Assembly (NCBI RefSeq): GCF_900169565.1 | Contig: NZ_LT828648.1 | Location: forward strand, 434,001-498,000 | Direction of reading: 5' to 3' | DNA: 64,000 nt | DNA from: Nitrospira japonica | Lineage (GTDB): Bacteria > Nitrospirota > Nitrospiria > Nitrospirales > Nitrospiraceae | In this document: one piece after another, positions 25,873-29,083 of the stretch | Numbering within the stretch: position 1 is the first letter of the stretch | How the letters are laid out: the number at the start of each line of letters is the position of its first letter | Position numbers and translations under genes: made by a program | The notes under the pieces: generated by a model | Databases searched by the model: none | Told to the model about the DNA's origin: nothing | The model's input: the letters and a program-made list of their open reading frames with translations, nothing else

Positions 25873-26652
25873 TCAATCGAGGATACGAATCCGTTCAATA
25901 GAAAGTGCTTTGCCGATGCGTGCGTCCACGTCGATGAGCGCGGCGCAGAAGACAACGGGCCCGCTGGCCACCTCGAAGCGCCGCGGCATGCCGGTCAGAA
26001 ACTTCTCGATCGCCAGTTCTTTCTTCACCCCGATGACTCCGTGAAGCGGCCCCGTCATGCCGATATCGGTCAGATAGGCCGTGCCTCGCGGCAGGATCTG
26101 CTCGTCGGCTGTCTGCACATGCGTATGGGTTCCCACGACGGCTGTCGCTTCGCCGTCCAGGAAATGTCCCATGGCCATTTTCTCCGAGGTCGCCTCAGCG
26201 TGCATATCCACGACGACGGCCGCAACCCGCTTCCTGAGCTTGGCCATCTCGCGCTTGGCCACCTGAAACGGACAATCCAGAGTCGGCATATAGGCCCGCC
26301 CCATCAGTTGCAAGATGCCCAACTCCTCACCGCCGGAGGTTTGGACCACGACGCTCCCCTGCCCTGGCACACCCTCGGGGTAATTGGCGGGCCGTAGGAG
26401 ACGCCGCTCCCGCGGGAAGTAATCAAGAATCTCCCGCTTATCCCACGCATGATTTCCCGTGGTGATGGCGGAAAGACCCGCCTGGAACAGCTCTTCGGCG
26501 AGATCAGGAGTGATCCCAAATCCGCCAGCCACGTTTTCCCCGTTACCAATGACGACGTCGATCCGTCGCTGCGCCACGAGCCGAGGCACCATGCGGGCGA
26601 CGGCGCGGCGTCCAGGCTCTCCCATGATGTCGCCGATATAGAGAATCTTCAC
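25873..26652 (-). CDS. ymdB: YmdB-type metallophosphoesterase (TIGR00282)
   Basis: A 259-residue calcineurin-like phosphodiesterase. Metal-ligand motifs are complete: GDIMGEPGRRAV (N terminus), GNGENVAGGFGI, GNHAWDKREI and GTHTHVQTADEQILP. In Bacillus the homologue cleaves 2',3'-cAMP and affects biofilm gene expression; it is usually, as here, next to rny. Its start overlaps the rny stop by 4 bases (ATGA), so the two are translationally coupled. Confidence 0.92.
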   Translation of the reverse strand: MKILYIGDIMGEPGRRAVARMVPRLVAQRRIDVVIGNGENVAGGFGITPDLAEELFQAGLSAITTGNHAWDKREILDYFPRERRLLRPANYPEGVPGQGSVVVQTSGGEELGILQLMGRAYMPTLDCPFQVAKREMAKLRKRVAAVVVDMHAEATSEKMAMGHFLDGEATAVVGTHTHVQTADEQILPRGTAYLTDIGMTGPLHGVIGVKKELAIEKFLTGMPRRFEVASGPVVFCAALIDVDARIGKALSIERIRILD

Positions 26653-28217
26653 TTGGCGTACTCGATGTACCGGCTTTCGCGAATCACGGTCACCTTGATC
26701 TGACCGGGATAGGTCAGTTCTTGCTCGATTTTTTTCGCCAAATCGCGCGACAACTGGAACGATTCAGTATCAGTCACGTCTTCCTGCCGCACGATCACGC
26801 GGATCTCTCGCCCCGCTTGTATGGCATAAGCCTTTTGCACGCCTTTCTGAGCATGGGCCAGGGATTCCAGTTTCTCCAATCGTTTGACGTACGACTCCAG
26901 AGCTTCGCGCCTCGCGCCGGGCCTGGCCGCAGACAGCGCCTCGGCGGCTGCGACCAGAACCGATTCCGGACAAATCGGCTCAACCTGCTCGTGGTGAGCC
27001 GCGATCGCATTGACGATCTTCTCGCTTTCGCCGTACTTCTTGGCGATTTCGGCTCCTAACATGGCATGAGGCCCTTCTTCTTCGTGGCTGACCGCCTTGC
27101 CGATATCGTGCAGCAGCGCCCCCCGTCTCGCCAAACGGACGTCCAAGCCCAGTTCGGAAGCCATCATGCCGCAGATGTACGCCGCCTCGCGCGCGTGATA
27201 CAGATTGTTTTGCCCATAGCTGGTGCGGTACTTCAGCCGTCCAAGAACTTTGATCAGCTCCGGGTGAAAGTCCGACAGCCCGAGTTCGAAGATGATTTTT
27301 TCCGCTTCCTCGTACATCAGCTTGTCAATCTCGACTTTGACCTTTTCGACGATCTCTTCGATCCTCGTCGGATGAATCCTCCCGTCCTGCATCAATCTTT
27401 CGAGCGATACCTTGGCGATTTCCCGACGCAAGGGATCGAACCCCGAGATGATCACCGCTTCGGGAGTTTCATCGATGATCAGGTCAATCCCCGTCGCGGC
27501 TTCGATCGCCCGGATGTTCCGACCCTCACGCCCGATGATGCGGCCCTTCATGGCATCGTTCGGAATCGGCACGACGGAGATCGTCGATTCCGACACATAA
27601 TCACGAACGACCCTCTGAATCGAACCGGTGATGATCTCCCGAGCCTCTCGCTCCGCATTTTCTCTGGCTTCCTCGAGCGTTCTCTTGGCGATGCCGGCCG
27701 CTTCCAGTCTGGCCTGGCTTTCCATCCCGAGCAGCAATTGTTTCCTCGCTTCATCAGCCGTCAAACCGGCCACACGCTCCAGAGCCTCCCGATGGTCTCT
27801 TTCCGCTTGCGCACAAGCCACTTCCTTGGCGCCGAGCTTTTCTTCGCGCTTCGTGAGATCCAATTCGCGTTTCTGCGCTTCTCCGTCCCGCTTATCGATC
27901 GCCGCGCTTCGCTTATCGATGGTCTCTTCCCGCTGAACCAAGCGCCTTTCCGCCGTAGAAAGCTCCGCCAATCGAGCCTTCTGCTCCTTTTCGAGTTCCG
28001 CTTTTGATTGAAAAACCAAATCCTTGGATTCCAGCTTGGCTTCACGAACGATGTTCTCGGCCTCGCGCTGCGCGTTCTGGGTCAGTTGACGGGCTTGATC
28101 TTCCAACTGTGCCCTCTTGGCCCCGTCGGACATTCTCCGAATCAGTTCATAGACTCCGATTCCTGCTCCGGCACCCACTACTGCCATCAAGATGTACATG
28201 ACCAGTGACGTAGACAT
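26649..28217 (-). CDS. rny: Ribonuclease Y
   Basis: Membrane-anchored endoribonuclease that starts mRNA decay. The 522-residue protein has an N-terminal membrane helix (SLVMYILMAVVGAGAGIGVY), a 170-residue coiled coil full of Glu, Lys, Arg, a KH domain (GRIIGREGRNIRAIEAATGI), and an HD domain with RRGALLHDIGKAVSHEEEGP. The C-terminal RYIEYAK is typical. Full length. First gene of the rny-ymdB-xseA-xseB-tlyA stretch. Confidence 0.96.
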   Translation of the reverse strand: MSTSLVMYILMAVVGAGAGIGVYELIRRMSDGAKRAQLEDQARQLTQNAQREAENIVREAKLESKDLVFQSKAELEKEQKARLAELSTAERRLVQREETIDKRSAAIDKRDGEAQKRELDLTKREEKLGAKEVACAQAERDHREALERVAGLTADEARKQLLLGMESQARLEAAGIAKRTLEEARENAEREAREIITGSIQRVVRDYVSESTISVVPIPNDAMKGRIIGREGRNIRAIEAATGIDLIIDETPEAVIISGFDPLRREIAKVSLERLMQDGRIHPTRIEEIVEKVKVEIDKLMYEEAEKIIFELGLSDFHPELIKVLGRLKYRTSYGQNNLYHAREAAYICGMMASELGLDVRLARRGALLHDIGKAVSHEEEGPHAMLGAEIAKKYGESEKIVNAIAAHHEQVEPICPESVLVAAAEALSAARPGARREALESYVKRLEKLESLAHAQKGVQKAYAIQAGREIRVIVRQEDVTDTESFQLSRDLAKKIEQELTYPGQIKVTVIRESRYIEYAK

Positions 28218-28786
28218 GGAACTAGCCCCTTTCCGGTCGAGGGCGAGCGTTGGTCGCAGCCTCGCATCGTATGTAGATCGCGTCTGAACTGAAGGAGGAC
28301 GAGTGAGAGGTGACTACGAGTGGAGACTGGTGCGAACGGAACGCTGGAACCGATTATTCGGGGTATGAACCCCGCGAGGATGAACGCCCTGCCGGGTTGA
28401 TTCGGACACTTCGTTCCTCGAGAGGAAATCCTCTCGCAGTTCCACCATATCGGCTGGCCTTCCTGACCGGGCGCGAGGTTCGCACCCGAAGCGGCAACGG
28501 AATCAACCTGACTCCATTGCTCACCGTACCAACCGACACAATGAACTCTATGATTCGAGCAAGTATGGCCAGAACATTGGCCAAGAAAGGAACGAGGCTC
28601 CGCACAGCACGACTCTTTTTCAACTCCGCTAGCATGGCAATTCTGACGTCCATTCCTGCGGCATCGATTCGTATCCCCGAGTGCTCCACCGGTTCGAAGT
28701 TCGCCTCAGTCAATACTCCTAATCCCTGATGCCTCCCAACAGTCAACGCCACAATAACAAAGGGTTACAGATTTTTGCAAGCTGAT
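28218..28786 (-). other. 569-base zapA-rny gap with strong hairpins, ncRNA candidate
   Basis: Between zapA and rny lies a long gap without a convincing gene. It has three tight hairpins: GGGCGCG/CGCACCC (28469-28487, one wobble), CGAGAGGA/TCCTCTCG (28419-28436) and CGGGGT/ACCCCG (28359-28374). The second competes with TTCCTC/GAGGAA (28414-28427), so the two cannot form together. In many bacteria 6S RNA is encoded just downstream of zapA, which makes this a good place for an RNA gene, but I could not fit the 6S shape by eye. Frames of 132 and 139 codons on opposite strands look random. Confidence 0.45.
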
Positions 28787-29083
28787 TCATCGGAACAGCG
28801 ACGTGGGAACTTGTTCCTCGATTGACTCCATCAGCGTTATCATACGCCGCTCTACGACTTCCTCGCCTTCCGTCCGCTTCTTCTCAGCCTCAAAGAGCTG
28901 GTGGGCGAGATTGACCGCCGTCAATACGGCCAATTTCGATGGAGTGGTTGTATTCAAACCTTCAGCCAAATGGCGCATTTGCCCATCGACAAAGCTCGCC
29001 AAACGGCGGATATAGTCTTCGTCTGCTTCCCCTCGAATCGCATACCGCTGGCCATAGATCTCGACGTACGTGGTCTTAGTCAA
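28787..29083 (-). CDS. zapA: Cell division protein ZapA
   Basis: A 98-residue Z-ring-associated protein that bundles FtsZ filaments. The head domain TTYVEIYGQRYAIRGEADED and IRRLASFVDGQMRHLAEG is the family pattern; the rest is the dimerising helix and coiled coil (LAHQLFEAEKKRTEGEEVVE). Its start overlaps the upstream coiled-coil gene by 8 bases. Confidence 0.92.
   Translation of the reverse strand: MTKTTYVEIYGQRYAIRGEADEDYIRRLASFVDGQMRHLAEGLNTTTPSKLAVLTAVNLAHQLFEAEKKRTEGEEVVERRMITLMESIEEQVPTSLFR

Follow-up and report, generated by a model that had tools for sequence, protein, structure and literature searches.

A candidate rod-shaped 5' leader with an embedded reading frame upstream of the RNase Y gene in Nitrospirales

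The E. coli rne mRNA carries a feedback leader of about 360 nt that folds into local hairpins, and SecM and MifM are regulatory arrest or leader peptides. The segment between zapA and rny described here resembles the rne leader in that it would be a structured leader of unusual length on the mRNA of a main decay endonuclease, whereas the E. coli leader is shorter, consists of local hairpins and precedes the gene for a different enzyme. It resembles the SecM and MifM systems in having a short candidate ORF whose N-terminal part is a membrane or secretion segment, placed upstream of a presumably regulated gene in an mRNA that folds. Unlike SecM and MifM, the candidate peptide has C-termini that vary among genera.

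Closer in kind is the rny 5' UTR of B. subtilis. Published work describes RNase Y as the starter of mRNA decay in this organism (PMC11313650) and reports that RNase Y cleavage in the rny leader and early ORF lowers expression of the enzyme itself (PMC10303841). The common point is a 5' leader of the RNase Y gene; the B. subtilis cleavages, however, lie mainly in the 5'-terminal 50 nt according to PMC10303841, whereas a rod of ~525 nt with an internal ORF is predicted here. Bacterial OLE RNA, which belongs to a large RNP associated with the membrane (PMC10898510), is alike in its large size, its structure and its connection to the membrane. Our segment differs in having no Rfam match, and its membrane link consists of the embedded peptide frame alone. 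Our literature search returned nothing on how the level of RNase Y is set in Nitrospira and, judged from search listings, no description of an rny-leader element; the words Nitrospira, rny and zapA are absent from the main text of PMC11109978. As far as the literature was searched, a rod leader of rny is undescribed.

The explanation that we favor, with modest confidence, is that the zapA-rny gap is a ~525-nt 5' leader of the rny mRNA with an embedded ORF, serving as a cis control element for the RNase Y level. With its near-constant length and coevolving arms, such a leader constitutes a defined, testable element across an order that includes nitrifying bacteria, and it may be a means of controlling a main RNA-cutting enzyme in these organisms.

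Locus, predicted promoter and length of the proposed leader

The DNA analysed here, hereafter the window, is a 64,000-nt stretch of the Nitrospira japonica genome. A gap of 569 nt (28218-28786) separates zapA, which ends at 28787, from rny, which starts at 28217, both on the minus strand, exactly where the original prediction had placed it. The upstream neighbor zapA (28787-29083, minus strand) matches the Pfam ZapA model with 65.1 bits, and the nearest of the 32 named relatives found for its product, from Nitrospira sp. CR1.3, is 90% identical. The downstream CDS (26649-28217, minus strand) is taken to be rny (RNase Y), a name given by the original prediction and consistent with its own sequence.

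Homologues of rny were found in 171 of 175 genomes of the family, and 126 of these 171 genomes, representing 14 of 22 genera, contributed one zapA-rny gap each to the family sample. Thirty more gaps were obtained from three further families (f2-f4) of the order Nitrospirales. Both zapA and rny were present on either side at 126 of the 127 family loci and 30 of the 33 order loci fetched; we dropped L060, where the contig ends before zapA, and L139, L159 and L161, which are without zapA. All loci were fetched via rny, and copies of the element away from rny would escape notice. Family gaps are 518-707 nt long (mean 572 nt), and their middle diverges fast, with a mean pairwise identity of 0.52 within the window's own genus.

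Directly behind zapA lies a predicted promoter (28751-28780, minus strand) consisting of a -35 element TTGCAA (28780-28775) and a TG-extended -10 element TATTGT (28756-28751) with an 18-nt spacer, from which we infer a transcription start near 28744. A pattern search for TTGnnn-N16..19-TAnnnT with TG before the -10 element succeeded within the first 200 nt of all 126 family gaps, compared with 19 of 126 for the pattern without the TG demand in a comparison region (gap nt 150-350). The distance from promoter to rny is 523 ± 23 nt in the family (459-596 nt) and 513-552 nt in 18 of 19 f3 loci, the remaining locus, L149, having 856 nt. In those f3 loci with gaps of ~700 nt, a promoter of the same layout lies deeper in the gap, at gap nt 127-148 (11 of 11 tested among 15), and the distance to rny is held at ~535 nt. 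Six f2 loci gave 441-534 nt (378 nt in L162) and three f4 loci 454-513 nt, the f2 and f4 promoter being the best regular-expression match in the first 270 nt with matches uninspected individually; L163 had no match to the promoter pattern in this span. By sequence pattern, then, the proposed leader appears to have a promoter at its 5' end. Uniqueness of the promoter in the window's own genome says little, as a stricter pattern matched once but a reversed control pattern also matched once. The predicted promoter at 28751-28780 was absent from the list produced by a stricter promoter scan.

In several g9 loci (L013-L071) an inverted repeat, CAAAGGG-N5-CCCTTTG, lies between the -35 and -10 elements, with a window counterpart at 28754-28780. 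Its eight pairs are mostly kept in the g9 consensus and partly in g1, and it is possibly an operator. A sigma-70-like site, TTGACA-17-TATAGT (29390-29362, minus strand), was also seen before a ZapB-like gene (11 of 12 matches, with 0.9 sites expected by chance in the scanned stretch), and because of this site rny may in addition be reached from a zapB-zapA promoter. A terminator scan of the window's own genome found one weak site before rny, against 1.1 expected by chance, i.e. no convincing intrinsic terminator.

Predicted folding of the proposed leader and pairing between its ends

In the predicted fold of the window leader, the presumed +1 nucleotide (~28744) pairs with 28287, and nearly continuous helices follow inward. 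The 5' arm (28636-28744, minus strand) starts at the predicted +1 and pairs with the 3' arm (28287-28393, minus strand) with helix probabilities of 0.85-1.00. The middle and tip of the rod (28412-28594, minus strand) include a helix of 28594-28588 with 28418-28412 and a 17-bp helix of 28544-28528 with 28458-28442. In the minimum-energy fold the strong hairpins (28520-28494, 28489-28467 and 28436-28419, minus strand) form the tip of this one long rod spanning ~28744-28287. RNA of the gap in the rny sense (minus strand) had a folding energy of -240.7 kcal/mol (z = -5.36, 100 dinucleotide shuffles), while plus-strand RNA was ordinary (z = -1.31). Strong hairpins and a structured character, as in the original prediction, are thus present in the window, but extreme stability is uncommon among relatives, in which 7 of 29 gaps at chosen loci, window included, had z < -2 on the sense strand (20 shuffles each). 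Since the whole-gap z is mostly ordinary in relatives, we did not use it as support. All 29 gaps had a more stable fold in the sense than in the antisense direction. Family gaps contain 39% C and 15% G at 80-85% of their length, and the f2-f4 gaps are pyrimidine-rich toward the 3' end (L149, with its 1010-nt gap, was left out).

Just upstream of the predicted rny ribosome-binding site AAAGGGG (28226-28232, minus strand), the first six of whose seven bases are invariant in seven g1 loci, a small hairpin is predicted at 28238-28264 (minus strand), with probabilities of 0.75 for its outer and 0.41 for its inner helix in this genome. At the corresponding place g9 has a hairpin that is 98.4% paired and includes 3 pairs in which both bases have changed.

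Pairing between the arms was examined with alignment-free tests, in which A:E stands for leader start against leader end and B:D for the inner arms. These tests used chosen loci: 44 for the segment swap, 31 for the shuffles, 20 for the row/column-corrected test, 19 for the control set and 26, three of them from genus g32, for the promoter-anchored test. When 3' segments were exchanged among genera, co-folding showed the 5' segment to prefer its own 3' segment at all 28 family loci, and a duplex measure did so at 25 of the 28. The fixed-window swap of 16 order loci outside the family gave eight negative and eight positive values, and has been superseded by promoter-anchored windows. In 30 of 31 loci, shuffles of matched composition paired less well than the native A:E arms (mean z = -1.94). 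After correction for row and column effects, in 20 loci of 20 genera, the native partner was favored for A:E in 18 loci (p < 5e-5) and for B:D in 16 (p = 0.00045); A:D, A:C, B:E and C:E showed no own-partner fit, and B:C was marginal (p = 0.036). Promoter-anchored windows favored native A:E pairing in 23 of 26 loci (p < 5e-5), comprising 11 of 14 in the family (p = 0.00025) and 12 of 12 chosen loci outside it; the opposed loci are L026, L045 and L049, all of the family. The same windows gave 19 of 26 loci for B:D (p = 0.00085) and nothing for A:D, B:E or A:C, but C:E reached p = 0.0066, contrary to the expected negative. A control on the zapB-zapA coding stretch showed no own-partner signal (p = 0.999 and 0.53). 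Because the reverse complement gave a coevolution signal as strong as the sense strand did, the choice of strand relies on the promoter and the context.

The evidence is mixed at the level of single pairs. In g9, 44 chosen pairs were 94.5% paired compared with 43-57% when slid, with 34 double-change cells versus 15.7 when shuffled, values to be read with the proviso that the pairs were picked from 89 predicted on the same alignment and that the way such a structure is obtained already tends to favor it over its slid versions. RNAalifold did not return the rod from seven g1 leaders, giving other long pairs instead (columns 172-186 with 591-612), and returned only part of it from g9; a run with gappy columns removed gave long-range pairs. 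Rival partners do exist: in g9 a 5' CGGUU box is joined to one 3' GACCG copy in the consensus structure and to another in the single-sequence fold. The RNAalifold consensus structures disagree with one another on single base pairs. On the covariation that the original prediction proposed to check, the outcome is divided: the arms coevolve (A:E and B:D), but the consensus structures differ in individual pairs. Sequence comparison supports a coevolving end-to-end pairing common to the relatives at the level of arms.

The position of the gap, the conserved promoter, its near-constant distance from rny, the coevolving arms and the lack of a convincing terminator in the window's own genome all favor the rny leader that the original prediction had offered as one of its two readings. 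Several of these features would also suit a stand-alone gene for a large noncoding RNA that acts in trans and is merely located before rny, i.e. the own promoter, the near-constant length, a rod that in the window starts from the predicted +1, and arm pairing that is kept despite fast sequence divergence. We nevertheless consider a separate RNA gene unlikely, because the window's own genome shows no convincing intrinsic terminator after the rod and before rny, the element has its end at the rny ribosome-binding site, and its neighbors are zapA and rny at 126 of 127 family and 30 of 33 order loci, all fetched via rny.

A stop-free reading frame within the gap

The gap had been described as gene-free, a label that does not hold for the greater part of the family sample: 106 of 126 gaps contain a sense frame without stops, in the window at 28635-28354. 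There the candidate ORF (28354-28635, minus strand) would encode 93 aa from an ATG chosen by comparison, with one hydrophobic stretch (Kyte-Doolittle 2.19 over 17 aa) and, by eye, no strong Shine-Dalgarno sequence. In the family the frame occupies gap nt ~110-435 and corresponds to a fast-evolving peptide of ~90 aa. The same frame criteria selected 17 of 126 reverse complements; 17 of the 20 family loci that failed them belong to g5, whose reverse complement passes in 13 of 56. In the window fold the ORF start is preceded by bases (gap nt 135-151) whose partners, nt 394-406, lie close to where the frame ends.

The frame appears to have been kept free of stops beyond neutral expectation. No stops occurred in 2133 codon cells of g9, 2342 of g18 and 354 of g1 (first 51 codons), compared with neutral simulation means of 38, 59 and 8.6, respectively, and g5 had 28 stops compared with 191 simulated. 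None of 300 simulations for each of these four genera had so few stops, the frame and limits having been chosen after the pN/pS results were seen. Protein similarity between frames was rejected as proof of coding, because antisense frames also match between genera, and was replaced by this stop-codon simulation. Values of pN/pS in the frame were 0.38-0.87; among the six frames it ranked lowest for g9 and g1 and did not do so for g18 and g5. GC contents at codon positions 1-3 were 0.64/0.54/0.59 for the g1 frame versus 0.60/0.41/0.69 for zapA. The hydrophobic stretch, in the first part of the peptide, is pronounced in g18 and g1 and weak in g9, and the C-termini differ between genera. An RGRP-type motif near the C-terminus is written with different synonymous codons in nine genera and is absent from the window's own genus. 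Frames of the f3 genera g30 and g32 look similar by eye, no ORF is evident in f2, g24 and g28, and the peptide has no Pfam or NCBIfam match.

These observations bear on whether the gap is mainly an unannotated gene for a small membrane peptide, its RNA structure being secondary. The absence or scarcity of stops where many are expected, synonymous-codon variation under the RGRP motif in nine genera and the hydrophobic stretch early in the frame speak for such a gene. Against it, the arms fit also where no ORF is evident (L136, L150, L154 and L157), codon-position GC is atypical, pN/pS is only mildly below 1 and 20 of 126 loci fail the ORF criteria, and we regard a peptide gene as the main content of the gap as quite improbable. 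A conserved protein ORF in relatives, which the original prediction had counted against a structured RNA, is in part what we found (106 of 126 gaps), but RNA coevolution is present as well, and RNA and ORF hence seem to coexist. It is unusual for a maintained reading frame to overlap a maintained RNA fold.

The gap could also be a degenerate spacer, or an inverted repeat at the level of DNA, with no role for RNA. This would account for complementarity that coevolves equally on both strands, but is very improbable given the conserved promoter, its near-fixed distance to rny and nested coevolution over four families.

Proposed function, the 6S question and distribution

Promoter conservation, near-constant length, coevolving arms and a stop-free frame were established computationally. 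On the leader interpretation, the element probably acts in cis to control the RNase Y level; here we infer transcription, co-transcription with rny and any regulation. Transcription of the leader would start from a TG-extended promoter of its own, right after zapA. The first ~110 nt of the leader would pair with gap nt ~390-500 to form a long rod that ends near the rny ribosome-binding site, with the small hairpin between the two. In most of the family sample the rod would contain a short translated frame, whose peptide has a single hydrophobic segment that probably spans the membrane. RNase Y itself or RNase III could cleave the rod and its flanks. Ribosomes on the short ORF may open the inner rod, which would couple rny expression to translation of the peptide or its membrane insertion. 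A more specific version, which we put forward tentatively and hold to be doubtful, is that these leaders form a class of ~525-nt rod RNAs of the Nitrospirales in which the fold and a nascent membrane peptide make up one switch, peptide translation and membrane insertion opening the inner rod and thereby setting expression of membrane-bound RNase Y from the same transcript.

The original prediction had also raised a divergent 6S RNA, for which an Rfam covariance-model search was the proposed check. Neither 6S nor any other family was matched at gathering level in the window; the region 28000-28950 gave one chance-level match only (Cis8_sRNA, E = 0.94), and nothing reached gathering level in 20 homologous loci. 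Every other Rfam family was rejected on the same grounds. Elsewhere in the genome, at G000:C1:3207345-3207419, a 6S match scored 45.6 bits, against a cut-off of 46.4, over model positions 59-134 only. A stretch of ~157 nt around it (L001 1463-1619; G000:C1:3207307-3207463) is conserved by BLAST in most loci compared and has, by eye, a closing stem of the GTGGGAGGAG/CTCCTCCCAC type. Matches to 6S were found in 36 of 80 related genomes (E <= 0.001), one of them above the cut-off, so that in the other 35 the Rfam 6S model falls short of its own threshold; four genomes (G017, G018, G024 and G198) have two matches each. Some bacteria carry two 6S RNAs, and the second candidate is an argument rather than a strict exclusion. 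The gap shares with 6S RNA (RF00013) a rod shape and the neighborhood of zapA, which 6S RNA adjoins in many bacteria, but with no model match in the window or homologous loci, a conserved 6S-like RNA elsewhere in the genome, and ~525 nt here compared with ~157 nt there, a 6S identity is scarcely credible.

The rny-leader element was followed into the wider phylum at 20 loci of other families. Fifteen were without zapA at this position and two more had weak zapA matches (E = 0.02 and 0.04) that were not accepted, whereas three loci of one family (L231-L233) have zapA, a gap of 721-862 nt and rny. On this basis the element occurs in one order and perhaps one further family. Gaps enlarged for their genus were seen in L114 (707 nt), L124 (704 nt) and L149 (1010 nt). 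In L231-L233, whose element may be the same as the rny-leader element, a promoter-like CTTGCTT...TGATAAAAT or similar sequence follows zapA.
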